This document shows, one piece after another, positions 13,075 to 59,100 of a DNA stretch of 64,000 nucleotides. Each line of letters starts with the position of its first letter. Position 1 is the stretch's first letter. Source of the stretch: a virus; IMG/VR virus record IMGVR_UViG_3300020188_000808, positions 1 through 64,000 of that record; one strand, written 5' to 3'. The notes under the pieces were generated by a model. The model did no database searches. It saw only the letters and a program-made list of their open reading frames with translations, and was not told where the DNA came from. Both the position numbers and the translations under genes were made by a program.

Positions 13075-14085
13075 TTATGCTTTACTATTATACCACATTG
13101 TTGGATCAAAGTCAATCGTTCGTTTCTCCAATGCAAGTACTGCACCAATACAACTTCCAGGATCACCTGGGTTTGGCGGTACGTAAATTGAATTCCAATC
13201 TTGTTTGATTCTATTTACTGCATCTCTATTTAATGCACATCCGCCTGTGAGAATTAAATTTCGACTTTGAAGATTATTTTTACACCAAGTACTTTGACTT
13301 TTAATAATCAATTCAAATACAAACTGTGTTGCATTAGCAAGTCTTTTCATATCATATTCAGTGGTTAGGTCTGACTTGTACCAACTAGCACCACGGTGTA
13401 GATTGTGTTTAAACTTGACACCTGGTACACTACCATCTAATGGTCCATCAATGAATGTATCAACCATGTGATTGATCAATTCTAAATTTTCTGACGTAGC
13501 AATGTCATTACCCATTTGTGATACTAGATACTCATCTCTGTTTGCTACAAGGCCCATACGTTGTGTCATTGCACTATAGAACAATCCAATGCTGTGTGGA
13601 TATCCTTGACTGTAAACTTTTTTAAGTTTACGATTCTTATCACCATGCCAAATAGTAAATGTTTCAAACTCACCAATAGAGTCTAAACACATTACAACTG
13701 CATTCGGTTCTGCTTGTGTGTAGAATCCATATGCGGCATGACTAGTATGATGTTTAGCAAACCTAACAGGGCATTTGATGTCCCATTGTTTTAGATAGTT
13801 TGTGATATTGTTTTCCATAAGCACTTCACGTACTGTGCCTTGTCCTGCTCGCCATTGTCTAAATGATTTAAGGTATGGTAGTTCGTACCAAACAACTTTG
13901 TCTGGCTCGCCGTATAGTTTACGTGCCATTGCAATTTGTTCGTCACTGTGTTTAGGATCTCCTGGTACGTCACTAAAGTCTTTTGCAAGACTAGCCCACA
14001 GACATTGTAGATCGTCAAACGGTCCTTTCTCAAAGACTGCTAAACTAGCATCGTGACTGTTACCAACCATACCCCAAATAATCAT
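13075..14085 (-). CDS. Carbamoyltransferase, N-terminal domain only
   Basis: 336 residues. Matches the NodU/CmcH-type carbamoyltransferase N-terminal domain: GNSHDASLAV at the start, KHHTSHAAYGF (111-121) with the His residues, LDSIGE, and ILTGGCALN near the end. Full-length family members have an extra C-terminal domain of about 170-200 residues that is absent here, as in short phage versions. It would transfer carbamoyl to a hydroxyl on a sugar, antibiotic or modified base. Followed immediately by gp41; precedes no tailoring partner that proves the substrate. Confidence 0.85.
   Translation of the reverse strand: MIIWGMVGNSHDASLAVFEKGPFDDLQCLWASLAKDFSDVPGDPKHSDEQIAMARKLYGEPDKVVWYELPYLKSFRQWRAGQGTVREVLMENNITNYLKQWDIKCPVRFAKHHTSHAAYGFYTQAEPNAVVMCLDSIGEFETFTIWHGDKNRKLKKVYSQGYPHSIGLFYSAMTQRMGLVANRDEYLVSQMGNDIATSENLELINHMVDTFIDGPLDGSVPGVKFKHNLHRGASWYKSDLTTEYDMKRLANATQFVFELIIKSQSTWCKNNLQSRNLILTGGCALNRDAVNRIKQDWNSIYVPPNPGDPGSCIGAVLALEKRTIDFDPTMWYNSKA
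13087..13115 (-). promoter_or_regulatory. Sigma70-like promoter of gp41
   Basis: Minus strand TTGACT (13115-13110), 17 bp, TATAAT (13092-13087). It lies inside the 3' end of the carbamoyltransferase gene and leaves a leader of about 20 bases. Confidence 0.82.
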
Positions 14086-14670
14086 TTATCTTTTCTCCGA
14101 GATCTTATCTGCAAGTCCGTATGCAACTGCTTCTTCGGCACTCATAAAGTAATCACGATCCATGTCTTTCATAAAGTCTTCTCGTGTCTTGCCTGCTGAG
14201 TTGTGCTTAACATACAAGTCAGTTAGATTCTCTTTTAGGTATTGAATCTCTTTGTAACGTATTTCAATATCACTTGCCATACCCGAAGCACCGCCGCTTG
14301 GCTGATGAATCATTGTACGTGCATTTGGTAATAGGATACGCTTACCTGGTGTGCCTGCTTGTGCAAGGAATGATCCCATGCTACATGCTTGTCCTAATAC
14401 TATTGTGCTAACATCACTTTTAATATATTGCATAGTATCATAGATAGCCATGCCACTAGTAATAACACCGCCTGGGCTGTTAATATAAAAGTTAATTGTT
14501 TTTTCTGGTGCTTGACTTTCTAAGAAAAGCATTTGTGCTACTACAACGTTTGCACTATGATCGTCTACTGGACCATTTAACATTACAATTCTATCTTTTA
14601 GTAGTCGACTGTAAATGTCATATGCTCTTTCGCCTTTGCTTGTAGATTCTACTACCATTGGTACTAACAT
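14086..14670 (-). CDS. clpP: ClpP-type serine protease
   Basis: 194 residues, full length for the ClpP core. The catalytic triad is visible: Ser97 in CSMGS, His122 in IHQPSGG, Asp173 in [11 protein letters not shown]. The handle and oligomerisation region is intact. It would form a tetradecamer working with a host unfoldase (ClpX/ClpA); no phage unfoldase is in the window. The start has GGAGAAGAATAG. It lies one base from the carbamoyltransferase and the oxygenase genes, in one operon. Confidence 0.94.
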
Positions 14671-15336
14671 CTATTCTTCTCCTTGGTTATGATTTGGCTC
14701 AACGTTCCATACGTTAAAGCTCATGCTTATTCGTTCAACATCGCTTTTAAATGGATACACACTATGCTTTAGTCCTGCATTAAACAATAGTATGTCTCCG
14801 GTCTTTGGTATTACTTTATGTGTTCCGTTAACGCCTAACACGTCAGAACCATAAAAGAATTCTAATTGCCCTGGGCAACGCATATTACTTCTTAAATTAT
14901 CATTTGCTTCTTCTGCAATTACTTCTGGCACATCAATATATAATATTGCACTAATCATTCCTGAGTGACTGTGCATAGGATTAAATTCATTTGCCTTTTG
15001 AAAGTTAATCCACGGTCCAGTGTTTAAATTAAAATTCATACTTGCAAAGTCAGGTGTTTCAGTTGATGGGTTAATCATATGTGTTTGTCTATGATCCCAA
15101 TCTGTTTGCATGTATGTAGCTAAATGCTTACTTACTAACTTCATAAACTCCTGTTGTTGATCAGGATCCATAATTGCTTGTAGTTGGTCATCAATGTTAC
15201 CTGCTAGATCACTGCCCACGTTTTCTTTTACATCACGTGTCCACGTTGCACACTTATGTAGCAATGTCATTAGTTCGCTACTCATAGTGCTACGATAGAT
15301 AGTAGGACCAAAAGGTCTAATTAATTCATAATCCAT
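14671..15336 (-). CDS. Putative 2OG-Fe(II) oxygenase
   Basis: 221 residues. The jelly-roll part (about 100-215) carries MHSHSG (His122/His124) and GDILLFNAGLKHSVYPF with the distal His, then a basic ERISMSFNVW consistent with 2-oxoglutarate binding. This fits the 2OG-FeII_Oxy_5-like phage family. It would hydroxylate an unknown substrate. It starts on TAATG, coupled to the 40-residue gene upstream. Four related oxygenase-fold proteins occur in this window. Confidence 0.8.
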   Translation of the reverse strand: MDYELIRPFGPTIYRSTMSSELMTLLHKCATWTRDVKENVGSDLAGNIDDQLQAIMDPDQQQEFMKLVSKHLATYMQTDWDHRQTHMINPSTETPDFASMNFNLNTGPWINFQKANEFNPMHSHSGMISAILYIDVPEVIAEEANDNLRSNMRCPGQLEFFYGSDVLGVNGTHKVIPKTGDILLFNAGLKHSVYPFKSDVERISMSFNVWNVEPNHNQGEE

Positions 15337-24162: not shown

Positions 24163-25626
24163 TTAATTCCAATCCACTTTCTCTATAGTAAATGGATACT
24201 GTGCTTCTTTGTAAAACTTCTTTCTTGATGTTAAATGCCTTTTTGCGTATTTACATGTGCTAGTTATATCCCAAATTTGCACAAAGTCTTTATCTTCTGC
24301 CTTACGAACACCTCTGCCTATACTTTGAATTACTCTTACAAAAGACTTGCCAGGCTCAATAAGAACAAGGTTAAAGATCCTAGGGATATTAATACCAACA
24401 GCGGCAACCCCGTACGTTGCAATAATAACCTTATTAGTTGCTTCTTTAACTTCGTCATACTGTTCCTTTCTATCTTTTAATTTCATATCACCTTTAACAA
24501 ACACGCTATCAGGAATAATTTCCTGTAACATTTCTCCTGCACTAATTCTATCAACTAGAATAAGTGTATTGCCTGATTGTGAAACTGTGTTTAATAATTT
24601 GCCTATGTATTTTATTCTTTCTGCATCTGTTACTAGAAACTTTAATTCTTCTGGATAGCCTGCAAAACTTTTAATGTCAATCATTTGTACAATGTTAACA
24701 TGACAGTTTGATAGTACGCCCTTGTCTTGTAATTCTTTTGCACTAATGTTGCCAATGACTGGCCCTATACTTGCTAAGATACTTTGAAACTCAAACTGTT
24801 CTTTAGGTACTGTTCCAGTTAAGCCCCAACGTATAGGTGCATGTTTTAAATTTTGTGTAAGTAATTTTTTAAGCACTTCTGCTTTTGCTTGGTGTACTTC
24901 GTCAATAATAATTGTTTGTACGCCATCTAAAAATTCTGCAAGTGTTAGTACATCGTCATAGTTTTTACTTTTCTTATCTAGTATGTTTAGACTTTGCCAA
25001 GTACAAATAGTATGTGTCTTGCCTAATTCTTTTCTATCACCAAAGTAAACACCTACGTCTAATCCGCAGTTAACATAATCTTCTTCTGTTTGTGTAACAA
25101 GACTCTTGTTAGGAACAATAACCAACGTCCGACCTAACTTTTCCATTAGGTGTGATAGTGTTGCAGTAATAATTGTTTTACCTGCTCCAGTTGCAACTTC
25201 TTGTAATGCTTGTGGATTATTTAAAAATCCGTTAACAGTTTCAACTTGATAATCACGTAGAATAATTTCTTCGCCTGCGGCCATATGTCCTTCAGGCCAA
25301 CATACACCTTGGTCTGCCCAATAGCGTTCATTAATTGCTGTAAATGTTAAATCGTGTTTTGCTCTGTTGTCTACAATCTCAGATATTTCAACACCTTGCT
25401 CTACAAGACTGTTAACAATAGTATCTAAATGGTTAACATATCCTGTACCACCAATACCAAAGAACGCAACAGTTCCGTCCCAACGTCCTAGTTTATATTG
25501 AGGCAAGTAACGTGCATAAGGAACTTGAAACTTTAACTTGTTAGCAATCTTTCTGCGATTTTCAACAGGCAAGTTTTCAACTTTTACGTTTACTTCATCT
25601 TGAATTACAATTCTACAACTTGTCAT
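24163..25626 (-). CDS. uvsW: UvsW-type SF2 helicase
   Basis: 487 residues. N-terminal DNA-binding-like domain (1-110), then an SF2 core: motif I ATGAGKT (about 145-151), motif II DEVH, motif III LTGT, motif IV-VI including QSIGRGVRK. It matches T4 UvsW, which unwinds branched DNA and R-loops and helps move from origin-dependent to recombination-dependent replication. It overlaps the upstream 434-residue gene by four bases and shares its sigma70 promoter. Confidence 0.93.
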   Translation of the reverse strand: MTSCRIVIQDEVNVKVENLPVENRRKIANKLKFQVPYARYLPQYKLGRWDGTVAFFGIGGTGYVNHLDTIVNSLVEQGVEISEIVDNRAKHDLTFTAINERYWADQGVCWPEGHMAAGEEIILRDYQVETVNGFLNNPQALQEVATGAGKTIITATLSHLMEKLGRTLVIVPNKSLVTQTEEDYVNCGLDVGVYFGDRKELGKTHTICTWQSLNILDKKSKNYDDVLTLAEFLDGVQTIIIDEVHQAKAEVLKKLLTQNLKHAPIRWGLTGTVPKEQFEFQSILASIGPVIGNISAKELQDKGVLSNCHVNIVQMIDIKSFAGYPEELKFLVTDAERIKYIGKLLNTVSQSGNTLILVDRISAGEMLQEIIPDSVFVKGDMKLKDRKEQYDEVKEATNKVIIATYGVAAVGINIPRIFNLVLIEPGKSFVRVIQSIGRGVRKAEDKDFVQIWDITSTCKYAKRHLTSRKKFYKEAQYPFTIEKVDWN

Positions 25627-26927
25627 ATATTCTCTACTTTAACTTGCCATCTATTATAAGGTGCTACTATTGATCCAACATCATATGTCATTGTTAGATC
25701 AATTCCGCATATCCATTCATTAATAAGGTTCAAAGGTTGCCTTGTTATAGACAACGATGTTATTGGTTTCCAATTACTTTTAAATAACGGCTTAGGAACT
25801 TTATTACTACTAATATACACTACTTTAGTTTTATTGTCAACATAATTATTTAATCCCTTATCATGGACGAATTGGTTAAATTCCTTAGCATAATCTAATT
25901 CTTTGTTGTCCAATCTAAACATAACACTCATTTGTTCTTTTGGAATAAAATTTACAAATGAATTGTGTAATTCAATTATATTATCTAAACAAGTTTGTGT
26001 ATCTAACACTACCAATAACGGAAACCTATCTAGTTGTTGTAATGCAGAACAAAGTTGATCTCTGTTCCATGTATCACTGTTAACACAAATTTGAAGATTA
26101 CTTCTATTAGCAATCTTAACTGCTAGTGTATCACAGTTATTAATTCTAAAACTTTCTGTGACATCAACGTCATCAAAGTATTCGAGACCATAAAGACCTT
26201 TACGGTCAAAATATTGATAGAGGTTGTTAACATTTGGTTGTCCTAGATCTTTTGTACATTCAGTAATGCCAAGTTCGTTGTAATTAATAAATTTATAATC
26301 TTTAATGCCAGGGAGGAATTTGTGAACATTAGTATCCATAACTTTAAGCTCATTGTATATTTCTTGAACTTCGTTAGAAATATCAAACTTAGCAGGAAAC
26401 TTATTAGCAATATTTACAACCTTCCAAACATATTTTTCAGTTAACGGAAAGAAGTGTTTGTGTTTTTCATAGAAATAATCTTTGTTATTACCGTTTTTTA
26501 ATTCTTCTAATCTATTAATAACTTTTTTATTAAACGGAAATCTAATAACAAGCATTTGCTGTTTTACATTATCATATGTAACTTCTTGTATTTTAACCCA
26601 ATGCGAACTGTCTATCTCTCTTAACGGAGTTCTTAAATTATCTAAATGGTTCTTAAGTTCAATGTTATGCTTTGTAAACTGTGGTGCGTAGTACTCTACT
26701 AATAGCTTTTTAACAAGCTCGTGTTGCTTAGGCGTGAGTGCAGTACCTCTAAAACATTGTTTAGCAATACTAAACATAATCTTATGGTTGTCGTCATGCA
26801 ACGTAAATGAGTGTAAGTCTGCTAACTCTTTGTTACGACTAAACTTAAAGTTACTGATGCCAGCAACTAGTTCTAAGCAGTCTTCAACGGTAAGGTCAGC
26901 AATGTCGATTGGTTCTTTTCTAAGCAT
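25623..26927 (-). CDS. Uncharacterised 434-residue protein coupled to uvsW
   Basis: 434 residues, no recognised domain. It starts with a helical N-terminus (DLTVEDCLELVAGISNF) and has beta-rich middle segments. The start is fixed by a strong sigma70-like promoter whose -10 ends six bases before the ATG, predicting a leaderless mRNA. Four-base overlap with uvsW suggests a joint DNA-metabolism role. I could not match it to gp59, gp46 or gp47. Confidence 0.7.
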   Translation of the reverse strand: MLRKEPIDIADLTVEDCLELVAGISNFKFSRNKELADLHSFTLHDDNHKIMFSIAKQCFRGTALTPKQHELVKKLLVEYYAPQFTKHNIELKNHLDNLRTPLREIDSSHWVKIQEVTYDNVKQQMLVIRFPFNKKVINRLEELKNGNNKDYFYEKHKHFFPLTEKYVWKVVNIANKFPAKFDISNEVQEIYNELKVMDTNVHKFLPGIKDYKFINYNELGITECTKDLGQPNVNNLYQYFDRKGLYGLEYFDDVDVTESFRINNCDTLAVKIANRSNLQICVNSDTWNRDQLCSALQQLDRFPLLVVLDTQTCLDNIIELHNSFVNFIPKEQMSVMFRLDNKELDYAKEFNQFVHDKGLNNYVDNKTKVVYISSNKVPKPLFKSNWKPITSLSITRQPLNLINEWICGIDLTMTYDVGSIVAPYNRWQVKVENI

Positions 26928-26933
26928 GTGTAT

Positions 26934-26962
26934 ATTATACTTGATTATAGTTCAGAAGTCAA
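26934..26962 (-). promoter_or_regulatory. Sigma70-like promoter giving leaderless mRNA
   Basis: Minus strand TTGACT, 17 bp, TATAAT, six bases, ATG (26927). Its -35 lies in the end of the KpsC/S-like gene. Confidence 0.82.
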
Positions 26963-27796
26963 GTTCTTTAATGGTAACCCTTGAGCTATTTCATCCAAAG
27001 TCCATTCAGTGTGAGCGTAATCGTTTAGCCATTGTGTTCTATCTGGCATTACGGGCTGTTCAATATCATGTAAGAAATCAATGTCATTGCCTACAGGATA
27101 AGCAAGACTGTGGGTACTAACAAAAGCAGGCACACCCTCGATGATACTATGTATACCCGGGTTGCTCGAATAACTGATAGTAGCCCATACATTATTAAAT
27201 CCCATATCAAAATCATCATAGGTGTCTTTGACATGTTGTGGATCTTGTCTGTATACGTTTTTAAATTCTTTTTCTATATGCGGTAATGGACGTCTTGGGT
27301 GTGGTCGAAATATAATAGGACGGTCTGTGTGTTTACGTACTTCACTAATAGTTTGCATTAGCCAATTACTCATGCTTGGCATACCTTGCCATTGTAAACT
27401 CTTATCATGCTGTCCGCATATTAAAATGTACTCGCCGTCGGTGCGCCAAGGTTTTAGTAATAGCCCAAGAGCATTGCTACGAGCATTATTATTACCACTA
27501 TCCCCAAAATAAGCATCACGATTGATTCCATTGAGACCTACTTTCCACGTTACGCCTCTATTTATTCCACCAACTTCTAATGCTATTACAGGTTTGTTTA
27601 TTGCTTGGAAGTGTTCCCAAACTTTTTGGTTTCCAGCCATTCGACCAAACCAAAGCACACTCCATATAACAGCAACATCGCAATCCCACTCATTAAAACT
27701 AACGGTATGGCCACTATTGTGCAAACTAGTTGCAAAAGAGTCAAACACCGGTTTACTATTAAGTGCGCCATAGTCTGTAAATAAACTAAACTTCAT
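26945..27796 (-). CDS. KpsC/KpsS-like glycosyltransferase, copy 1
   Basis: 283 residues. It carries PIIFRPHPRRPLP, ISYSSNPGIHSIIEGVPAFVS and a C-terminal WTLDEIAQG, the pattern of capsule polysaccharide export/Kdo-transferase-like GT-B proteins. Two more copies lie at 28598 and 29524. These enzymes add linkage sugars to lipid-borne polysaccharide in bacteria; a phage role in surface glycan change or DNA/protein glycosylation is inference. It overlaps the 27786 gene by eleven bases. Confidence 0.75.
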   Translation of the reverse strand: MKFSLFTDYGALNSKPVFDSFATSLHNSGHTVSFNEWDCDVAVIWSVLWFGRMAGNQKVWEHFQAINKPVIALEVGGINRGVTWKVGLNGINRDAYFGDSGNNNARSNALGLLLKPWRTDGEYILICGQHDKSLQWQGMPSMSNWLMQTISEVRKHTDRPIIFRPHPRRPLPHIEKEFKNVYRQDPQHVKDTYDDFDMGFNNVWATISYSSNPGIHSIIEGVPAFVSTHSLAYPVGNDIDFLHDIEQPVMPDRTQWLNDYAHTEWTLDEIAQGLPLKNLTSEL

Positions 27797-28601
27797 TCCA
27801 ATAAGACTCGCTTCGAGGTTCTAGTAAGTCTTTCTTTCTACTTCGACCTTCTGATTTTCTTACACCTTTTAAGTGATCAAACCATGCTCCAAGTTCGCAG
27901 TTGATTAGTGGATGCCCTTCGCCATTTATAAGATGGCCACTGAAGTCTTTAATATTAGGGTATTGTATTCTAATCTTTTTTAATACTTGATCAAATACAT
28001 AGCTGTCATGCCACTCTTCCATTTTAAAGATTCCATCATCTGCTTCTTCATAAACTCTTTCAAACTCTTTTAAAAATGCATCGCATCCAGGAGTTCTAAG
28101 TGTAAGTCCGTACCAACCACATTCAGGCCATTTTTTGTTTCTACCTAAGTAGTGTAGCCATTGTGATGCAGGTACTAAGTTTCTAAATTGTCCGTAAGTA
28201 ATAGGACTGTGTACAAATGTGTCGCCGTCAATCCAAACTAAGATATCTGTATCAGGATCTTTAGCGGCTTCAAATACTGCGTATGTTTTGTTTGCAAAAC
28301 GTACTGCGTCCCATTTAAATTCTTTGTGATGATCTCTTGGACGTCTAGCAGGCCACGGACATTTGCCGTGTGCTTTTGGATCGTCTTTATGACGTTCTTT
28401 AAATGCATTAAGTTTTGGTAATGCTTGTTTAGCATCAACAACTTGAATATTTGCACCTGGCGGAACAACAGGAATACAATCCTCTGCATACACTCGTAAG
28501 TGTACAGCTGGGTGTACATTTTTAGCCCAACTATCAATAAGACGTTGTCCATATTGTTCTAGTCCTGGTTGGTGAAATGTAGTTATACAGGTTATTCTCA
28601 T
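27786..28601 (-). CDS. Glycosyltransferase, GT-A like
   Basis: 271 residues from ATG 28601. An N-terminal Rossmann-like start (MRITCITTFHQPGLEQYGQR), then VWIDGDTFVHSPI with the DxD metal/nucleotide-sugar motif near residue 123, and a late GHLINGEGHPL. It resembles GT-A enzymes of the GT8/GT25-type range. Donor and acceptor unknown. It lies between KpsC/S-like copies 1 and 2, part of one glycan cassette. Confidence 0.75.
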   Translation of the reverse strand: MRITCITTFHQPGLEQYGQRLIDSWAKNVHPAVHLRVYAEDCIPVVPPGANIQVVDAKQALPKLNAFKERHKDDPKAHGKCPWPARRPRDHHKEFKWDAVRFANKTYAVFEAAKDPDTDILVWIDGDTFVHSPITYGQFRNLVPASQWLHYLGRNKKWPECGWYGLTLRTPGCDAFLKEFERVYEEADDGIFKMEEWHDSYVFDQVLKKIRIQYPNIKDFSGHLINGEGHPLINCELGAWFDHLKGVRKSEGRSRKKDLLEPRSESYWNEV

Positions 28602-29527
28602 TTTACGTATTTCCTCATCCATTCCCATGCTTCGCCGCTACGTAAGTCTGCAAAACTCCAATGGCATTGTGCAATTTTTCTAACCCACTGTTCTCTATCA
28701 AAAGGTCTTAATTTTTGTAATGCATCTATTCTTTGAAAGCATACTTCTTGTACTTGACTTGCTTGCCAATCTTCACATATAACTGGAACACCCTCTATGA
28801 TACTAGCTACGCCTGGACTACTATTGTACACAATAGAACAATGTGCAGTTGCTAAGTCTTGTGTGATGTCTTTTGCAAAACTAATTCTAATATTATTACC
28901 TACAATATTTTTTACATACTCAGGTGCTTTTTTATCTCCAGGGTGTGGTCTGATAACAATAGGCTTATTAGTATACTGTCTAATTTCTGCAATTTTAGTA
29001 TTAGCCCATGTTACAACATCTTTACCCTTCATACTCCAGCCGCCATTACGTTGTAAGCACAATAAAATATTTTCTCTATCGTTATAGTTCCAAGGTTTCA
29101 ATTTAACACCTAGGTCACGTTGAATCTTTTCCCATTGCGTGTCACCGTATTCATCGTTGCAATACTCTGCGGTATTAGCAAATACTCCGTCAAAACTATA
29201 TCTTAAATAATGATGAGGTTCGTTTGTTTTTGCTTTAAACAAAAATAAATTAGCATCTGCTGTAATAAATCTTTTGTTAGCTGTGTTACTAGCAATACTT
29301 CTACGTAAATTGATATGCGGTACTGCTTGACTGTTTTCGTGCATCCAACCTTGCATTACTGCTACATCGCATTGCATTACATCAAAGCCGTCATATACTA
29401 ATCCATTGTCACCACTTACTCTAACTCCGGATATAAAATTTTTAATAATATCTATTTTATGATTAGGCTTATTTGCTTTAAGTGATTTCCCTGGAGGAAT
29501 AACTTTAGTGTATCCTATAACTCTCAT
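28598..29527 (-). CDS. KpsC/KpsS-like glycosyltransferase, copy 2
   Basis: 309 residues. Carries PIVIRPHPGDKKAPE, IVYNSSPGVASIIEGVPVICED and WSFADLRSGEAW, the same three landmarks as copy 1. The N-terminal part differs, as expected for different acceptor recognition. Four-base overlaps with both neighbours show a single operon. Function by family only. Confidence 0.75.
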   Translation of the reverse strand: MRVIGYTKVIPPGKSLKANKPNHKIDIIKNFISGVRVSGDNGLVYDGFDVMQCDVAVMQGWMHENSQAVPHINLRRSIASNTANKRFITADANLFLFKAKTNEPHHYLRYSFDGVFANTAEYCNDEYGDTQWEKIQRDLGVKLKPWNYNDRENILLCLQRNGGWSMKGKDVVTWANTKIAEIRQYTNKPIVIRPHPGDKKAPEYVKNIVGNNIRISFAKDITQDLATAHCSIVYNSSPGVASIIEGVPVICEDWQASQVQEVCFQRIDALQKLRPFDREQWVRKIAQCHWSFADLRSGEAWEWMRKYVK

Positions 29528-30531
29528 TTTACTATGCTCCAGGCATATCCACTTAACATTTCGTCGTATGTAAATTGATTGTTGGCTAGGTATCTACACA
29601 AATAAGTTAACTGTTTCCTTCCTGGATGTTCTGCAAATTCAATTCTTTTTAAACTAGTTTCGCAAATGTCTTGAGCACAATTTGGTCCTAACACTACAGC
29701 AGGTTTGCCGTATATCATTGCTTCAAGTGCGGCAATACTATTATATGTTACTAGACAATGTACGTCATCTGCAAGTGCTTGTTCCATTGTATTAACACTA
29801 ACACGATCTTCTCTACTTGGCTTCTTACGTAGTTGTACTGGTCTTGAAGTGTTCTTTCTAATGGTAGCAATAGTTTGATCAATCCATTGTTCTAGATCTT
29901 GATCAAAGTATTTCATTACCTTTTCACTAGGAGGAACAACTAAAATCTTACGTCCTGGTGTTGCATCTTTAAACGGAATTGCTAATGAATTCCAACGGCC
30001 GCCTCCATACCATTTATCCGATTCTGGTTTCTCTCTATCAGGCATGTGTAAATTTTGTAATGCATTTTTTACAATTCTATGATAAGTTTTTTTACCGTTT
30101 GGATTACGTGTACTTGGGTTGTTGCCTACATACCCTGTATCCATAAAGTAAAAATCTCTACCTCGCTCGATGCACATCTTAATTAGTTTTTGTTTGCCTA
30201 GTCCTCTAACTAATAATGGAGTGTCGTCGTCCCAATCAACATCGTCGGCACGAATATACTTACCGCCACTACCTAATGCCATGCCCATTACAAAAGAATC
30301 AATAAGTCCAAATGACCCTTTGACTTTCTTTTCTACTTTTTTAATTCCACTGTCTACACAAATTAACGGAGGGTTTTTTACTTCTTGGAAAACTTCTGCA
30401 ACGGCTTCAACTGCAAATCTCTGTTCTCCTAATGCAACGCTGTGTAAGATCTTATCGATCATTTCTTTTAAATGCGGTCTAATCACTCGTGTATCCCATT
30501 CGCCTATATTTTGTTCCATGTCATGTTCCAT
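29524..30531 (-). CDS. KpsC/KpsS-like glycosyltransferase, copy 3, diverged
   Basis: 335 residues. It retains VTYNSIAALEAMIYGKPAVVLG and a C-terminal FTYDEMLSGYAW, but the RPHP motif of the other copies is replaced by LRKKPSRED. Catalysis may therefore differ or be lost. A second ATG four codons in is an alternative start. It lies two bases from the GT8-like gene. Confidence 0.7.
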   Translation of the reverse strand: MEHDMEQNIGEWDTRVIRPHLKEMIDKILHSVALGEQRFAVEAVAEVFQEVKNPPLICVDSGIKKVEKKVKGSFGLIDSFVMGMALGSGGKYIRADDVDWDDDTPLLVRGLGKQKLIKMCIERGRDFYFMDTGYVGNNPSTRNPNGKKTYHRIVKNALQNLHMPDREKPESDKWYGGGRWNSLAIPFKDATPGRKILVVPPSEKVMKYFDQDLEQWIDQTIATIRKNTSRPVQLRKKPSREDRVSVNTMEQALADDVHCLVTYNSIAALEAMIYGKPAVVLGPNCAQDICETSLKRIEFAEHPGRKQLTYLCRYLANNQFTYDEMLSGYAWSIVK

Positions 30532-30532
30532 G

Positions 30533-31210
30533 TTATCTGTCCATCATTTGAAATAAATTGTCTTTCCATAATTGAGCAAATTCACAGTTTCTGTAATTTT
30601 CAAACCACGGGCCTCCTTCTGTATAATGAATAAGTTTAGGCTTTTCAATATCATTATACACTCCTACTAGGTAGTTCCAAGTATGATCTAGTTCACCAAT
30701 CTCTTCGTCTTTGAGCCAACTAAATCTATGAAAGTGTGCACCATTAAGTTCTGGCTCATTTACCATGTCTTGTGTTACTATAGCATTACTTGGATGTCCG
30801 CAGTTCCATAGTACCATTGAACTCCAATTCTTACGTGGATAGACTGTTTGTTTTTGTCCGTCCATCTTTGTATCTTCTGTTACTTTATAATCGTGTTGCA
30901 CACACATAACAGCATACTTGTCGTCTGCTTGATCAAATAACTCTTGTATGTCTGTAGTAAGGATCATATCACAATCCATAAACACAGCCCAGCCTTTAAA
31001 GTTTGCAAGTTCTGGTACTAAGAATCGTGTAAATGTAAATTCAGTACTTGCTAGTTTATCAACAGGACGATTATACCACCCTGCACTTCGTAGTTCGCTT
31101 TGTCTTAATGGTTGCACATTTACATTAGAACTATGTTGTTCAATACTGTGCTTACATACTTGATAAGCAATGTCTTCTCTTGGATCGTATCCTACAAATA
31201 CTTTATTCAT
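30533..31210 (-). CDS. GT8-like glycosyltransferase
   Basis: 225 residues. VFVGYDPREDIAYQVCKHSI at the N-terminus and VFMDCDMIL (DxD) near residues 76-84, followed by LDHTWNYLVGVY and IHYTEGGPWF. This matches the glycogenin-like GT8 fold (HYTEGGPWF corresponds to the HxxGxxKPW region). It transfers a sugar from a nucleotide donor with metal. Four-base overlap with the TylF-type gene. Confidence 0.85.
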   Translation of the reverse strand: MNKVFVGYDPREDIAYQVCKHSIEQHSSNVNVQPLRQSELRSAGWYNRPVDKLASTEFTFTRFLVPELANFKGWAVFMDCDMILTTDIQELFDQADDKYAVMCVQHDYKVTEDTKMDGQKQTVYPRKNWSSMVLWNCGHPSNAIVTQDMVNEPELNGAHFHRFSWLKDEEIGELDHTWNYLVGVYNDIEKPKLIHYTEGGPWFENYRNCEFAQLWKDNLFQMMDR

Positions 31211-31881
31211 TGTTTAGTTTTCCTTACGTATACTGCCGACCTATCAATAGTATGTATCTCGAGAGAGTCTCCAAACGCCTCATGAAAGGCTTTTTTACTG
31301 CCGCGCCAACTATGATAGTCGTCCAATACCATATACCCACCTACATTTAAACGTGGCCATAGTGTTAATATTTCTTGTAGTGTGCTTTCATACCAATCAG
31401 TATCCAACCGTAGTAATGCAATACTTTTGGGTATATTGTTTGGGTCTAATAGTGTTTGTTCACAAGGACCTTTAATAAAATTGCATTGATGTGGAGGAAT
31501 ATATTTAAATACGTTTTCACTAACTTCTCCAATTTCTGCTCTACACCACTGATCAAATCCGTTCTTTGCTTTTCGGCTAAATCTTGCATGTGACACAGCG
31601 TTTAGTTCATTTACTTTATGATCATGTACAGTTGGCTCAGTCATACCTTCAAATGTATCAAACAGCCAAAAGTTTCTTTTTGTTTTATCATTAGCTAACC
31701 AAGCACTAATAATTTGTCCGCCTTTCCACACTCCACACTCAACAATATCACCTGGAATATTATTAGCATCAAGGTCTCTTACAGCCCGTATAGTTTGCGT
31801 TATACGTTTTCCGCTTGTCATTGTATACGGAGCAACTTCTTCTACTATACGAAGCTCTTTTTTAGTTGGAATAAACTCCAT
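31207..31881 (-). CDS. TylF/MycF-type O-methyltransferase
   Basis: 224 residues. GDIVECGVWKGG (about 43-54) is the TylF SAM-binding signature, followed by WLFDTFEGMTEP, LLRLDTDWYEST and VLDDYHSWRG with metal-binding Asp residues. Family members methylate sugar hydroxyls. Here it is embedded among glycosyltransferases, so a sugar on a glycan is the natural substrate. One-base overlap with the upstream gene. Confidence 0.87.
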   Translation of the reverse strand: MEFIPTKKELRIVEEVAPYTMTSGKRITQTIRAVRDLDANNIPGDIVECGVWKGGQIISAWLANDKTKRNFWLFDTFEGMTEPTVHDHKVNELNAVSHARFSRKAKNGFDQWCRAEIGEVSENVFKYIPPHQCNFIKGPCEQTLLDPNNIPKSIALLRLDTDWYESTLQEILTLWPRLNVGGYMVLDDYHSWRGSKKAFHEAFGDSLEIHTIDRSAVYVRKTKQ

Positions 31882-32645
31882 TAGCGCCTTTCTATATCTT
31901 CTTCAACACATTGTTCGCCGCATTGTATTTCTAATATATGTGCATTTTCAGTTCCTGGGTTACTTGGTAAATGCCAAACTTCTTTATTAATTTCATATGG
32001 TCTACTCGATGGCGTTAGGTAAGCAATCTCAGTGCGGCCGTCCCATTCAGTTACCATTTTAACTTCGCCTTCTAATATATTCCATTGTTCACTACGTTTA
32101 AAATGTTTTTGATTACTTAGTGCTTTCCCTGGATAAATTACAAGCTCTTTTACTTTGTAACCTTTTTCTGGTTTGTCATCAAGTACACGCCAGTAGCCCC
32201 AGTCACGTTGTGTCTTTTGTGTTTTCCACTCGTCTAGTATCCAACTACTACTGTTAGCTTTGTTTTCGCCGCCAATTCCAAATGCAAATTCTACACTCGG
32301 ATGATCACCGTATGTAGCATACTCAGGAGTTGTAGTGTTTGTTCTATCGCCACCGTTAGCAAATATAATTTTGCCTGTGGTAGTTGACATAGTAAGAAAT
32401 ATTGCACCACATGCACTATCATCGCTGTCATCAAAACTGATAACTTTATCTACAATAGCTAGTTCTTTAATGATAGCAAGACGTTCTTTAAAAGGCATAA
32501 ATGGCCGACCCTTTTTTCGAGTCAGCCATTCATCTGAATTTAATCCAACAATTAGTTTATCACCTAATTGTTTTGCGGCCTTAAAATAGTTAATGTGTCC
32601 TGAATGTAGTGGATCAAAGCCACCTGTTACTAGTACGTGTCTCAT
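31881..32645 (-). CDS. Nucleotidyltransferase-cupin fusion protein
   Basis: 254 residues. Domain 1 (about 1-135) is a cytidylyltransferase-like fold: GGFDPLHSGHINY contains the HxGH motif, and it resembles HldE-C and glycerol-phosphate cytidylyltransferases. Domain 2 (about 160-245) is a cupin like the ManC/PMI C-terminus: KHFKRSEQWNILEGEVKM and HLPSNPG. The fusion would activate and isomerise or sense a sugar phosphate. It starts directly after a TTTAAATA-N5-ATG late element, with no Shine-Dalgarno. Confidence 0.83.
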   Translation of the reverse strand: MRHVLVTGGFDPLHSGHINYFKAAKQLGDKLIVGLNSDEWLTRKKGRPFMPFKERLAIIKELAIVDKVISFDDSDDSACGAIFLTMSTTTGKIIFANGGDRTNTTTPEYATYGDHPSVEFAFGIGGENKANSSSWILDEWKTQKTQRDWGYWRVLDDKPEKGYKVKELVIYPGKALSNQKHFKRSEQWNILEGEVKMVTEWDGRTEIAYLTPSSRPYEINKEVWHLPSNPGTENAHILEIQCGEQCVEEDIERR

Positions 32646-32660: not shown

Positions 32661-33245
32661 TTAACGATTTAAAGTTTGTATATATTGGTTTACATTTTCA
32701 GGTGTTGACATTTCGTAAGGATCATTATCTGTTCCTTCGTTGTTATAGCCTTCTTCAATAAAACTTTCGCTAACAATCATGTTCTCAACATACATAGCAT
32801 ATCTCCATGATCTATTTGCAAAGCCTTTATCTCTTTTATTACAAAGCATACCAATAGCATGTGTAAAGTCTGCATTACCATCTGCTAGTAATTTAACTTT
32901 AGTACAACCTAATTCTTTTGCCCAAGCATTCATTACAAATGCATCGTTAACGCTTACACAATAAACTTCATCGACACCTTCTGCTTTAAATTGTTCGTAC
33001 ATTTTTTCGTATGCTGGTAGTTGTTCTGAACTACAGGTTGGCGTAAACGCTCCTGGTAATCCAAAGATAACAACTTTTTTATTTCCAAAAAGTTCTTGGC
33101 TAGTTTTCTTAACCCATGCACCACCTAATGCACAGCCGCCATCATCACCAACTTCATCACCTTCTCGTAATACAAAGTTGATATCGCCTGGAAGTGTGTC
33201 CCACTTCTCAATCGCTTTTCTTTCCCCTGGTAATTGATAATTCAT
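32661..33245 (-). CDS. Peroxiredoxin, Prx5-like
   Basis: 194 residues. Peroxidatic Cys71 lies in PGAFTPTCSSEQLPAYE, followed by the expected catalytic Arg in FANRSWRYAMYV. It resembles the Prx5/AhpE-related redoxins that reduce peroxides with host thiols. An insertion near the N-terminus (DDGGCALGGAW) contains another Cys. A phage peroxiredoxin may protect infected cells or virion assembly from oxidative stress. Its neighbours are glycan genes and uvsY. Confidence 0.87.
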   Translation of the reverse strand: MNYQLPGERKAIEKWDTLPGDINFVLREGDEVGDDGGCALGGAWVKKTSQELFGNKKVVIFGLPGAFTPTCSSEQLPAYEKMYEQFKAEGVDEVYCVSVNDAFVMNAWAKELGCTKVKLLADGNADFTHAIGMLCNKRDKGFANRSWRYAMYVENMIVSESFIEEGYNNEGTDNDPYEMSTPENVNQYIQTLNR

Positions 33246-33267: not shown

Positions 33268-33723
33268 TTATATACTAGCATCTTCCATGCCAGCTACTCT
33301 TAGTTTTACAATATTAGTAAGTTGCCATTGTTTTTGGTCTAGGCCCTTACAAACTCCTAGCCATTTGTTACGCATTAGTGCAAACTCATTGATAATCTTT
33401 TCGTAGTCAACAACGTCAGCTTCACCGTCTACATATTTTTCAACGTCTCGACTTGACAATGCTCGCGGGTAACTTTCAAGATATTTCTTAAAGAACGAAC
33501 TACGTAACCTACGCAATTCGATGTTTAGGTATTCTAATATTGCTTCAAGTTCTTGTAGTTGATTAAATCGTTGTTCAACAACACCCGGCATCTCAGCTGA
33601 TGCACGTTCAACATTGCCTTTAATCTTACATTCCTTTCTAGCTTCTACTAATTGATCTTCATAGTAGTTGATAGCATTAGGAATGTTACTAATGTCTCGA
33701 GCTATATCAGAATACCATCCCAT
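33268..33723 (-). CDS. uvsY: UvsY-like recombination mediator
   Basis: 151 residues, almost entirely helical and charged. The C-terminal half matches the UvsY pattern: DVEKYVDGEADVVDYEKIINE, then a helix ending QWQLTNIVKLRVAGM. It lies next to the uvsX region and gp32, as expected for the mediator loading UvsX onto gp32-coated DNA. The N-terminus diverges from T4 UvsY. Shares one base with the 33723 gene. Confidence 0.7.
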   Translation of the reverse strand: MGWYSDIARDISNIPNAINYYEDQLVEARKECKIKGNVERASAEMPGVVEQRFNQLQELEAILEYLNIELRRLRSSFFKKYLESYPRALSSRDVEKYVDGEADVVDYEKIINEFALMRNKWLGVCKGLDQKQWQLTNIVKLRVAGMEDASI

Positions 33724-33985: not shown

Positions 33986-35083
33986 TTATTCAGTTGGTTG
34001 TGTTTCGACTTCAGTTTTGACTTCAGTTTCGACTACTGATTCTTCAACCATGTCTACTGCTTCTGCAATGTTATTCCAGTCCATCATAATTGTGTCAAGA
34101 GCGTCACCGCCTGCTTCCCACACTTTACGATATTCTTTTACTTCATTACCTTTAGAATCAGTGTACTTTAGTCTATTTCCGTCTTTGACAAGTAATCCTT
34201 TTTTCTCAAACAAGTCAACCAATCCACTGTAAGGATTCATACCTGTTTCATAAGGAATCTTAACTTGTACGCCTTCGAACGGTTTTGCATAACGAGTTTT
34301 CATTACTTTACAACCTGCTCTAATACCACGCACTTCGCTAATTTTATTACCGTCAAGGTCTTCTTTTAGCTTTAGTTTTTTCATTGCAACAACAATACTT
34401 GATGCATAGATAAAACCTTGTCCACCACTGATCTTGTCATCTGGGTCAAACATATCCTGTGATGCATATGTATGATTAGTACAAACTAATCCTACGTTAC
34501 AACTACCAATCATGTTAACAGTATTACGTACAAGTGATGTTAGTGCTTTAGGCTTACGACCCATATCACCTTTCATATCACCTTTGTTAAACTGATCAAC
34601 ATCTGTAGGTGTTAGCAACATACCCAAACTATCAACTACAAACAAAATCTTAGGACGTTCTTCCTCTGGCATTGCTTTGTAGTCAATCATAAACGTACTA
34701 ATAGTTTTAGCAACGTCATCAATCATTGACATGTTAAGTTTTAGTAGTTTGTCTTCTGATGTATCTACATCAAGAGCTTTCAACCAACTTTCATCAAGTG
34801 CGTTCTCTGAGTCAATTAGAACTACAAAGATACCTTGATCTTGTGCCGCCTTTACAATATTACCTGCACAGATATATGATTTACCTGCACCAGATTCTCC
34901 TGCAAAAACAGTTACCTTACCTAGTGGAACACCTTTGTGGAAGTCGCCACTAATAAGATAGTTTAAGGCATAGTTACCTGTACTAATCCAATCCGTAGGG
35001 TCATTAAACCCACTACTCATGCCTGTGATTGATTTAGTTAAGTTTTTACGAAACTTAGAAACGTCAAATGCTTTATTAGCCAT
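33986..35083 (-). CDS. uvsX: UvsX recombinase (RecA family)
   Basis: 365 residues. Walker A GESGAGKS (62-69), Walker B-type FVVDSLGM and the L1/L2-like stretch around KISGGQGFIYASSI. It catalyses strand exchange with gp32 and UvsY. The last 25 residues are acidic and Thr/Glu-rich. Ribosome site AAGGAGATACA. A hairpin separates it from gp32. Confidence 0.95.
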   Translation of the reverse strand: MANKAFDVSKFRKNLTKSITGMSSGFNDPTDWISTGNYALNYLISGDFHKGVPLGKVTVFAGESGAGKSYICAGNIVKAAQDQGIFVVLIDSENALDESWLKALDVDTSEDKLLKLNMSMIDDVAKTISTFMIDYKAMPEEERPKILFVVDSLGMLLTPTDVDQFNKGDMKGDMGRKPKALTSLVRNTVNMIGSCNVGLVCTNHTYASQDMFDPDDKISGGQGFIYASSIVVAMKKLKLKEDLDGNKISEVRGIRAGCKVMKTRYAKPFEGVQVKIPYETGMNPYSGLVDLFEKKGLLVKDGNRLKYTDSKGNEVKEYRKVWEAGGDALDTIMMDWNNIAEAVDMVEESVVETEVKTEVETQPTE

Positions 35084-55621: not shown

Positions 55622-56183
55622 AGAATTATTTTCTATTCCTATATTGGAACATAGTGTTCCAGAACGCATTGCAAATGAAGTTGAACAGTTTGTAGTGCCA
55701 AGACTGTCTTTAATTCCAAGACCTGATAACAATGCTCCCCACGCTACTGATTACTTTGAAGATAAAAAAGTAGTACATCTAATCAACGATGTGCCTGAAT
55801 TATTTGGTGAGATACAAGATTGTGTTAATAGATTTCAACAACAATCTAGTATTAAACATTTACATGACGTTAATCAATACACTTGGTGGACACAAGACTA
55901 TCACGAAGGCGATATACATACTGAACACGAACATGGTATGAATAAGATATCAGGAGTGTATTGGGTAAGAGCTAATGAAAACGCTGGTGGGTTATGTTTT
56001 AGAAATCCTAATCCATATGTTGAATATGCACATAACGAAAACTCACAGTACGGCCGCCGACAATTCGAATTCCAACCTATAAAGGGCAAGTTATTACTTT
56101 TCCCTTCTTACTTAAAACATGCAGTAATGCCTAGTAGTAAAAACGTTGTTCGAACTACTATAGCATTTAACGTAGTACGTTAA
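55608..56183 (+). CDS. 2OG-Fe(II) oxygenase (Oxy_5-like)
   Basis: 191 residues. HEGDIHTEHEHGMNKISGVYWV carries the His ligands, and GGLCFRNPNP, GKLLLFPSYLKHAVMPS (distal His) and VRTTIAFNVVR complete the family pattern. Its stop codon shares TTAA with the stop of the convergent giant gene. Hydroxylation target unknown. Confidence 0.83.
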   Translation: MSVFRELFSIPILEHSVPERIANEVEQFVVPRLSLIPRPDNNAPHATDYFEDKKVVHLINDVPELFGEIQDCVNRFQQQSSIKHLHDVNQYTWWTQDYHEGDIHTEHEHGMNKISGVYWVRANENAGGLCFRNPNPYVEYAHNENSQYGRRQFEFQPIKGKLLLFPSYLKHAVMPSSKNVVRTTIAFNVVR

Positions 56184-59100
56184 GCCTGAGCTTCACCCCA
56201 TCTTAGAATAATGTTCGCTTTAGTATCTGTACCACCTGTTTTATAAACGTTGATTGCTAATACGTCTGGACCATTTGGATAAGTTCCTCTACCACCTAGT
56301 GTGGTATTAGTTAACTCTTTCAATGAGCTTAGAGATAATGAACTTGATTGTCCTGGTGTTGCAATAAAGGAGAATACAGTTTCACCTGGCTGTGCATAAG
56401 GTGGTTGTCCAAATAAGAACCCTACCGTATCACCTGCTGTTATCGTTGCATTTGAACTCTGTGTAAACGTTACTCTGTAATATGTTGTTGAACCAAATGA
56501 TAGTTCTTGCACACCAGCAACCGCAGTACCCGCTGAGAACTTAGAGTCTTCAACAATGTCGCCTGCAATAGCGCCTGTTGCGTTCCAGGTTGTTTCTGTA
56601 AAGAACAAGTAGTTAGAACCAGTTAAATCTCCACCAATTCTAAATGTTACTGTTGGATCAGCATTTTGTACTAGAATATTTTGATTAAATCTTAAACGTA
56701 CTCTACCGTACCATGGTTCTTGATAAACTTCTTCAATAGTTCTTGGATTACTTGTATAGTCGTTACTACCTGATGCAGTAACCTGCACACCTGTTGTAAC
56801 TTCGCCATTTAAAGCGGCAAACTCTGCTGTTGACAAATACTGATATCTACTATTTCTATTACCGTATAAGAATTCAGCAGTTTGTGTCATTGGACCTTGT
56901 ACTGTTGCACTTCTAATAACCTGTGTAGCACCAGTTGACCATACAACAGAACCGCCCGGAGCAACTTGAGCAAAGCTCGGTTGTCCACCAGCCGCCGCAC
57001 CAGTTAGTGCAGACCAACCAACATCATTTGGATTAATTGGATAGTTTTGTGGATTCAAAATTCCTTCAACAACAATACCGCCAGTAATTGGATTATTTGA
57101 ACTGTCATATCCGTCTGATGTAATTTCAATACCTTCTAGTAGCAACTGAGCTCTGTTTAGTAGTTCTCTTTCACCTAAGTCACCAACAATAGCGTTACTA
57201 ACACTAGGTGCTAGTCTTAACATAAACACAGTATTTCTTAATGTACTAATATCGTTACCTGCAGAAGCGTATGAGAAAATATAACCACGGTCTTCATCAA
57301 ATCCACCGTCTGTTAGGAACGCTGAACCCCAGTGTGATATGATTGGAGTAATTGTATTACTAATCAAAATTACACCAGTTCGCTCGTCATGTGGTACAGC
57401 ACCACCTGCTGTATAAGTTCTTGTTGCACCTGCCGCAAAGTTTGTTAGTGGAGCACTTCTAGTACACCCTGTTAGGGTATCACCTGTTACACCAGTATAA
57501 GATATCATTTCGTTATCAATAATAACTGTACCAGTTGTTGGGAAGAATGAAGATGTAATTAATGGAATTGTATTTTGTGTTGCATCCATTGCCGTCGCTA
57601 GCCTATCATTTGGACCTTCGTTAGTAACTTCATAACGCACAGGCATGTTACCAGTACGCATAAATGCTTCTGTGTTAATGTTTGAGTTACGCATTCTGTG
57701 ATAGAAAATAAAGTTACCATCATCACCACGTAGCATGTAGTCAATAAATCCAGCACCGTACCAACTGTACTGAATACCAATCATCTGCATCTTACTGATG
57801 TCCATGATATATCCACTACTTCCTAGACCGTCTAGTGTGTCTTTGTTAAAGTCAGCTTGTTTAGTTTTCTTATCACTAATCAAACATAATTTCACACCAG
57901 TAGCATTTGAATTACCTCTAAAGTCAGGTGTTACTGTCATAGCATTATCTGCTGTAATCTGTGAAACAACGTGTGTCATTCCTTTAATAACAATTCTATC
58001 ACCAGCTTTTAACTGATCTCTAAATCTTGTTCCTGACCCTGTACATGTGTTTGAATCAACATTAATTGCAACAGTACCTGCTAACTGTAGTGTAGCAGTT
58101 CTTTGTACTGCACTAAAGTTTGTTCCATCGTACTCCATAAAGATTCCGTTTTGATCATCAAATGCACCTGAACGCACAGTTGCACCGTGCCAGTTAAGTA
58201 ATGATACTTGGGCTCTTGTACTTAATACTGGTGTTAATGAAGCAGGAGCAATTTGCGAAATAACTTTAAATGTTCTTTCACTTACAATACTTGCTACTGT
58301 GTAATTTCCATTATATCCTGGAGTTTCAATACCAATTAATCTAATTTGTCCACCAACTTGTAGTCCATGGTCAACGTCATCTGTTGTAACTGTAATGAAA
58401 GTACCTGCTAGTAGATCGTCTGCTGTTACATCTAATAGATCGTAACTTGGAGCAAACAACGCACCAGTGGTATACATAATACCTTTACCTGACTGGTATC
58501 TAATATATTTTTTACTCTGTCTAATTGCTTGAGCACCGTGTTGCGGTCCTCCTGTTCCAAGCATAACTCCACCATCATATGGTCTGTGTACAAAGAAACT
58601 ATCTGGTCTTGGATAAAGCGTTGCACTAATATCACCTGTTTGTGTAATAGTACCTGGAGCTCTACACTGATATCTTAAACTTGTTGTAGTTGGAACCTGT
58701 TGTGCAAAGAACGGTCCTTCTAATAGTGTATGATTGTTAACGCCATCGTCTGAGTTAACTGTAACAATAAATGCATCTCCTGGAATCAATCCATGTGCTG
58801 ATGCAAATGAAACTTCTGTAGTTGCCAACGCCGCAAATCCAATTAATGTTCTAGCTGGTATTTGAGCAGTTATTAATTCTGACATAGTTACTGTTGCATA
58901 CGTTACTGTTGTATCTCCTGCAACTGCTGTTCCTACAATACTTGCGTCAACAATACTACCGTCTGTTGCTACTTCAGCAATAGTAATTGTTGCATCGTTA
59001 GTTGGTGATGTACCTCCTAACTCTGTACCTGCTACTTTAATTTTATTACCAGCTACATAAGATTCACCATCAACTGTAATTATTGGATTACTATAACTGC

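Follow-up and report, generated by a model that had tools for sequence, protein, structure and literature searches.

The gene run at positions 26945–32645 of the IMG/VR virus record IMGVR_UViG_3300020188_000808 is very probably a glycan cassette that is genetically linked to CMP-Kdo, the cytidine monophosphate (CMP)-activated form of 3-deoxy-D-manno-oct-2-ulosonic acid (Kdo). The record comprises 267,783 bases, and positions 1–64000 form the window analysed here. A fuller reading has a little less than an even chance of being right: it sees in the cassette a soluble assembly line by which a T4-related marine jumbo phage makes a Kdo-linked oligosaccharide, most likely for a virion protein. The interval is filled exactly by seven ATG-started minus-strand open reading frames (ORFs), A to G, of 283, 280, 309, 335, 225, 224 and 254 amino acids (aa). 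Neighbours overlap by 1–31 nucleotides (nt), the sole exception being a 1-nt gap between D and E; the seven overlapping, leftward genes described in the original prediction, made from the bare sequence, are therefore all there.

26945–27796, minus strand: A, KpsC/KpsS-type GT-B glycosyltransferase with RXHP (hhalign to the C family, E 3.6e-56)
27786–28628, minus strand: B, GT-A glycosyltransferase resembling GT6, with an invariant DxD (AlphaFold2 and Foldseek)
28598–29527, minus strand: C, KpsC/KpsS-type GT-B glycosyltransferase with RXHP and without the QXXXD Asp (AlphaFold2/Foldseek and motifs)
29524–30531, minus strand: D, divergent KpsC/KpsS-type GT-B paralogue with (K/R)xKP in place of (K/R)xHP (hhalign to the C family, E 2.9e-32)
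30533–31210, minus strand: E, GT8-family glycosyltransferase (GT-A, DxD) (Pfam PF01501)
31207–31881, minus strand: F, TylF-type sugar O-methyltransferase (Pfam PF05711)
31881–32645, minus strand: G, RfaE/TagD-type nucleotidyltransferase fused to a phosphomannose-isomerase-type cupin (Pfam PF01467 and PF01050)

Neither A, B nor C has a match above cut-off in Pfam, PHROG or NCBIfam, a sequence search of the PDB returned nothing usable for them, and D gave one sub-threshold match to DUF6716. Since sequence-only searches were uninformative, fold comparison was needed for A, B and C. C was modelled with AlphaFold2 at a predicted local distance difference test score (pLDDT) of 89.8, and the model's 19 best PDB matches in Foldseek are all KpsC or WbbB β-Kdo transferases (best E 9e-8), with template modelling (TM) scores of 0.39–0.53 when normalised by query length. 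This fold is seen directly for C, and for A and D only by profile homology, both being paralogues of C in profile comparison. None of the three matches Capsule_synth, the Pfam family of KpsC/KpsS capsule proteins, at E up to 1. The earlier description of three KpsC/KpsS-like GT-B proteins thus holds in fold (C) and in paralogy (A and D), for proteins that lie outside the Pfam capsule family.

Retaining β-Kdo transferases are defined by two motifs, QXXXD, which supplies the Asp nucleophile, and (K/R)XHP; the latter binds CMP and is common to these enzymes and sialyltransferases (PMC10148158, PMC12887879). RXHP is present in 32 of 32 relatives of C and 34 of 34 relatives of A, where R164, H166 and P167 are invariant. 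D has neither the Q nor the HP, and none of its 27 relatives carries the HP motif. When the C family is aligned with KpsS and the C-terminal module of KpsC from E. coli Nissle, the Q, the HP and an NS(S) motif fall in register. Single-sequence alignments of C with KpsC and KpsS score weakly (E 0.28 and 6.5e-4) and count as evidence only in combination with the fold result. The Asp of QXXXD is absent from C, where QRNGG, with Gly in this column, aligns with QVEDD of KpsC and QVYND of KpsS; it is also absent from A, which has QHDKS, with Ser in the Asp column. An Asp at this position occurs in just one of 32 C rows and four of 34 A rows, all from paralogues borne on the variable insert described below. 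Because the CMP-binding motif is kept, the probable donor for at least A and C is an acidic sugar activated with CMP, either Kdo or a related sugar. With RXHP retained and the Asp lost, a CMP-sugar donor is plausible for both, and their chemistry must differ from that of KpsC. A fourth GT-B paralogue, with QXXXD and RXHP both intact, is found as 29 distinct sequences in the variable insert of many relatives and is absent from the window's contig.

The remaining enzymes are two further glycosyltransferases, a methyltransferase and a sugar-activating protein, as had been proposed. The AlphaFold2 model of B (pLDDT 91.5) is of GT-A type. Its best Foldseek matches are GT6 α-1,3-Gal/GalNAc transferases (E 3e-8, TM only ~0.4), and neither Pfam nor PDB gives a sequence match to GT6, so that GT-A is the class predicted by the model and GT6 a resemblance. 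D134 and D136, the DxD pair, are invariant. Structure prediction, named earlier as something that could refute the glycan identity of these genes, yields glycosyltransferase folds for both B and C. A search of a genome collection for a bacterial donor of B returned one 56-aa match, on a Patescibacteria contig, and no donor was identified. The other three proteins all exceed their Pfam cut-offs. E (PF01501, 29.4 bits against 24.3) has invariant D79 and D81 and is 49% identical to a protein of cyanophage S-SCSM2R and 45% to one of Pelagibacter phage Mosig. F (PF05711, 119.9 bits against 23) finds NovP and mycinamicin 3''-O-methyltransferase in the PDB (E 2e-23 to 6e-19) and is restricted to the window's subclade. 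G joins a nucleotidyltransferase with HxGH at aa 1–75 (PF01467 CTP_transf_like, 56.8 bits against 21) to a cupin at aa 143–253 (PF01050 MannoseP_isomer, 58.2 bits against 23.6), which matches positions 357–460 of TIGR01479. The HxGH motif, the cupin ligand pattern Q.H....E and a later H are kept in 15 of 15 relatives. In combining a phosphomannose-isomerase-type cupin with a nucleotidyltransferase, G resembles ManC in architecture; it is not ManC (GMP_PMI), as its nucleotidyltransferase domain is PF01467 and not of the NTP_transferase/ManC type. A second CTP_transf_like nucleotidyltransferase gene, at ~227.9 kb of the contig, adjoins a clamp-loader-like AAA ATPase.

The cassette is widespread. 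More than 590 viral stretches carry relatives of C, and complete cassettes occur in many independent viral contigs, in answer to the earlier suggestion that the set be sought in other phages. The order G-E-D-C-B-A-g434-uvsW is stable, and the cassette always lies between the recombination genes uvsY and uvsW. The ratio of nonsynonymous to synonymous substitution rates (dN/dS) is 0.035–0.21 for all seven genes, which indicates that the core is maintained by purifying selection; together with the shared order in many independent contigs, these low values argue that the cassette is more than a chance assembly. The interval from uvsY to G is hypervariable in relatives, holding 0–13 extra genes for methyltransferases, FkbM, pyruvyl-, sialyl- and sulfotransferases, GT25, GDP-mannose dehydratase, epimerase, aminotransferase and others. 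In a subset of loci (L077, L078, L097, L101, L127, L129, L132, L149, L153 and L155), B is inverted within the cassette, often with extra genes adjoining. The window's A and E are nearer to clade II (67 and 69%) than to the other clade I phages (59 and 64%), and B, C, D and F follow clade I; as the two groups of genes side with different clades, recombination inside the cassette is likely. A ranking of gene conservation between inner and outer transferases was dropped, since the two sets of loci had been selected on similarity to C and to G, which makes the values biased.

A source of the presumed donor sugar lies on the same contig. A search for CMP-sugar synthetases gives one match, a KdsB-like gene that overlaps a KdsA gene, both outside the window:

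contig 266,841–267,614: KdsA (TIGR01362, 322.7 against a cut-off of 314)
contig 266,177–266,872: KdsB-like protein (PDB matches all KdsB, E down to 2.6e-26)

KdsA also passes PRK05198 (333.7 against 242). The kdsB-like gene is directly followed by two 2-oxoglutarate (2OG)-Fe(II) oxygenases (contig 265,097–266,199), plus a DNA ligase. A like neighbourhood of KdsA/KdsB and two 2OG oxygenases exists in cyanophage S-SCSM2R; possible roles of the two enzymes are hydroxylation of the sugar and creation of a protein acceptor. Physical linkage of kdsA to the cassette is observed in one subclade; in the window's subclade the gene lies elsewhere on the genome. At least 233 stretches in IMG/VR encode KdsA relatives. 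In 35 fetched kdsA-centred loci, which include a few duplicates of the same contig, kdsA lies 0.75–5.3 kb beyond uvsW on the same strand, kdsB usually comes after kdsA, and A, B and g434 often come before uvsW. Some of these loci have phosphomannomutase and adenylylsulfate (APS) kinase genes near kdsA/kdsB. Two loci from another kdsA-bearing lineage, L249 and L260, have a thymidylate-synthase-type protein and a separate nucleotidyltransferase in the kdsA run, followed in L260 by a deaminase-like gene; the thymidylate-synthase-type protein may make either thymidylate or a hydroxymethylated base. S-SCSM2R is the one clear isolate among annotated phage records to carry kdsA; in it, both kdsA and kdsB lie near the E homologue. 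The kdsA of Acinetobacter phage MD-2021a (CAKLQH020000043.1) was not counted, as its pyrG-kdsA-eno arrangement is in bacterial order and looks like bacterial contamination. The link to Kdo, first drawn from the resemblance to KpsC/KpsS, has thus gained KdsA and KdsB-like genes on the contig and kdsA/kdsB beside the cassette in relatives; it is the standing of A, C and D as Kdo transferases that has suffered, with the Asp missing and D lacking HP.

A study of surface sea water lists both kdsA and kdsB, without a mechanism, among viral auxiliary metabolic genes (PMC10653327). This agrees with another explanation, namely that KdsA/KdsB and the transferases merely top up the host's lipopolysaccharide (LPS) or envelope synthesis, with no phage-specific product. 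That is improbable: a dedicated, variable set of five transferases with modifiers, for which no close bacterial orthologue of B was found, is not host-like, and the linkage to a hypervariable island points to a product specific to the phage.

For the preferred assembly line, we infer the following donors, order of assembly and acceptor. KdsA and the KdsB-like protein would turn host arabinose-5-phosphate, phosphoenolpyruvate and cytidine triphosphate into CMP-Kdo, with KdsD and KdsC lent by the host, and G would provide a second activated sugar. The five glycosyltransferases (the GT-B enzymes A, C and D, the GT-A enzyme B and the GT8 enzyme E) would then build a short oligosaccharide, which F would methylate, other phages swapping in other modifiers at this capping step. 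Transfer would take place in the cytoplasm, with a virion protein as the most likely acceptor. The complete glycan envisaged in the original prediction is supported as far as glycan genes go; its completeness is partly presumed, for KdsC and KdsD would be the host's.

Cytoplasmic transfer is expected because the cassette encodes no membrane, lipid-carrier or export protein. None of the window's cassette proteins reaches the score for a membrane segment, and among relatives only eight of 480 cassette-region proteins do so; the membrane-type exceptions are a small 85-aa protein of one subclade and one borderline case. In Caulobacter phages, distant relatives of A, D and E adjoin genes for tail proteins and lysozyme; in podoviruses, such relatives have terminase or capsid genes as neighbours. 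A virion acceptor stands close to an even chance.

The main rival is remodelling of host LPS. Here the enzymes would glycosylate lipid A-core or another lipid-linked acceptor at the cytoplasmic face of the inner membrane, and a flippase or export system of the host would carry the altered glycan out, blocking superinfection during the long jumbo-phage cycle. The inventory is LPS-core-like, with GT8, an HldE-type nucleotidyltransferase and KdsA/KdsB here and GT25, sialyl- and pyruvyltransferases in relatives, and LPS-core transferases need no membrane domain. The genomic context is of middle type, not late, and the LPS genes of marine jumbo phages from a cyanophage-type cluster have been proposed to alter the host surface (PMC9123017). 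Nevertheless, there is no lipid-carrier transferase, flippase or polymerase in the cassette, Gram-negative hosts already make CMP-Kdo, and the distant relatives of A, D and E adjoin virion genes in other phages. Remodelling of the host surface is on balance unlikely; virion and host surface are inseparable by sequence. Of the three acceptors originally offered (host surface, virion and DNA), it is DNA that has become disfavoured.

Several observations weigh against a Kdo-linked glycan made for the virion. Because the QXXXD Asp is absent, retaining Kdo transfer by the known mechanism is, judged from the motifs, unavailable to the window's A, C and D. The KdsB-like protein falls below the KdsB equivalog cut-off (TIGR00466, 108 against 155.2). 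KdsC and KdsD are not encoded, TIGR01670 and PF01380 being silent in the contig, and are assumed to come from the host. In the window's subclade kdsA and kdsB do not adjoin the cassette, and the contig, which has no terminal repeat, may be incomplete. Finally, ATAAATA, the T4-type late promoter motif, is found within 60 nt upstream of the start of 31 of 241 ORFs in the window and the rest of the contig, where 9.3 are expected. These ORFs include those for tail sheath, tube and other virion proteins; the motif precedes none of the cassette genes, which lie amid recombination genes. Its absence points to expression of the cassette alongside the recombination genes, ahead of virion assembly, and is mild evidence against a purely late function, without separating the three acceptors.

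The same setting amid replication and recombination genes, with no late-promoter-like motif, would fit DNA hypermodification, in which the glycan would sit on a modified phage base, as in T4 and RB69, and block host nucleases. Sugars other than glucose do occur on phage DNA, for example arabinose in RB69 (PMC6024577), and the contig encodes 2OG oxygenases. DNA glycosylation in T4 and RB69 likewise relies on GT-B glycosyltransferases of T4-related phages. However, neither the contig nor any of 25 cassette contigs, most of which are fragments, encodes a protein of the thymidylate-synthase/hydroxymethylase family (PF00303), so that no synthesis of a hydroxymethylated base was found. A C5-methyltransferase was not found on the contig either, and it is the lack of these two enzyme types that disfavours DNA as the acceptor. 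No TET match was obtained, the control being likewise silent. The GT-B proteins have no convincing link to RB69 ORF003c (hhalign probability 3.7%), and A–D have no Pfam match to the DNA glucosyltransferase families of T4 type. DNA arabinosylation as in RB69 is accordingly unsupported. In addition, a hypervariable oligosaccharide made by five transferases exceeds what base protection needs. DNA modification, too, has only a slim chance.

The cassette lies within a conserved replication module, with these neighbours:

24163–25626, minus strand: uvsW-type helicase, left border of the cassette (phrog_16, 2e-76)
25623–26927, minus strand: g434, co-conserved 434-aa protein between A and uvsW (present here in nearly all complete cassettes)
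32661–33245, minus strand: peroxiredoxin between G and uvsY (Pfam Redoxin, phrog_2281)
33268–33723, minus strand: uvsY-type recombination mediator, which bounds the hypervariable insertion site of relatives on the right (phrog_231, 9.8e-17)
33986–35083, minus strand: uvsX/RecA-like recombinase (Pfam RecA, 7.6e-15)

To the right of uvsX come an ssb-like gene and, beyond it, genes for packaging and tail. The borders given earlier, uvsW on one side and uvsY/uvsX on the other, are correct, with two genes overlooked: g434 beside uvsW, which has no family match in Pfam, PHROG or NCBIfam, and the peroxiredoxin beside uvsY, which occupies this place only in the window's subclade and is absent in clade II. 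Over 24–36 kb, DNA similarity was detectable to a single phage record, that of jumbo phage XaC1 (uvsX, 72% DNA identity). That phage has the order uvsX, uvsY-like gene, helicase, with just two small genes separating the last two, so that calling the cassette "inserted" is fair relative to XaC1. At the corresponding position, no glycan genes are annotated in Sinorhizobium phage Phosso or Pseudomonas phage Cassandra. The cassette is therefore best seen as an addition to the module. An origin from a photosynthetic phage was rejected, PF00124 being absent. Elsewhere in the window, positions 13075–15336 (minus strand) encode a Nol/NodU-type carbamoyltransferase (N-terminal domain), a Clp protease and a 2OG-Fe(II) oxygenase between a DnaB-like helicase and a primase; the carbamoyltransferase could be another glycan modifier. 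The largest ORF of the window, 2569 aa, lies at 56180–63889 (minus strand).

Among known systems, the Kdo transferases KpsC (GT107), WbbB (GT99) and KrkA (GT140) share with the cassette the GT-B architecture of C, the (K/R)XHP motif and the Q of QXXXD (A and C), and CMP-Kdo synthesis genes on the same genome. The cassette enzymes differ in that Gly (C) or Ser (A) stands in place of the nucleophilic Asp, HP is lost from D, and the GT-B proteins are single modules of ~300 aa with no membrane anchor and no match to the Pfam capsule model. Group 2 capsule (kps) loci are similar in their conserved KpsC/S-type enzymes, CMP-Kdo synthesis and serotype-like variable region, whereas the cassette is phage-borne and encodes only cytoplasmic enzymes, with no KpsM/T/E/D export and no recognised lipid acceptor enzyme. 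Predicted Kdo clusters of Cafeteria roenbergensis virus (CroV) and Fadolivirus (PMC9614988) are the nearest parallel at the level of the whole system, the Kdo pathway of CroV adjoining glycosyltransferases and sugar methyltransferases. The nearest viral folds to C include capsule-type proteins of Tetraselmis virus 1 (TetV-1) and a CcrColossus protein; CroV, Fadolivirus and TetV-1, unlike the present phage, are eukaryotic giant viruses. Distant homologues occur in the glycan clusters of Pelagibacter phage Mosig (B, D and E), Caulobacter Bertelyvirus/Colossusvirus (A/D and E) and cyanophage S-SCSM2R (E, with KdsA/KdsB), none of which has the full ordered cassette between uvsY and uvsW.

Mycobacteriophage glycosyltransferases act on virion proteins, according to the account of Freeman 2023 in PMC12619734. 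This is the mechanism proposed for the cassette. The cassette system differs from the mycobacteriophage loci in combining five transferases with a CMP-Kdo supply of its own and a variable island of modifier genes. The literature searched, outside which most subscription journals fall, contains no phage Kdo glycosylation system, and no phage in which KpsC/KpsS-type transferases and a serotype-like variable island are combined with CMP-Kdo synthesis of the phage's own.

The idea of phage-made oligosaccharides is already known; Kdo is normally characteristic of bacterial surfaces. Were the glycan carried by virions, Kdo would label phage particles, which would bear on adsorption, on protection and on the interpretation of lipopolysaccharide-type signals from seawater viromes; were it carried by the host, the cassette would be a surface-conversion system of a lytic phage. 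The window's A, C and D and the QXXXD-bearing paralogue of relatives form a natural series for asking whether a Kdo-transferase fold can work without a covalent nucleophile. In its most far-reaching form, which is tentative and rather doubtful, the proposal is that a widespread clade of marine jumbo phages makes its own CMP-Kdo, passes it to a phage-specific KpsC/KpsS branch that functions without the known Asp nucleophile and, with a serotype-like island, coats its virions with a strain-specific acidic glycan assembled in the cytoplasm. If true, phage glycosylation would gain a new kind of system, and the Kdo-transferase fold a new mechanism.

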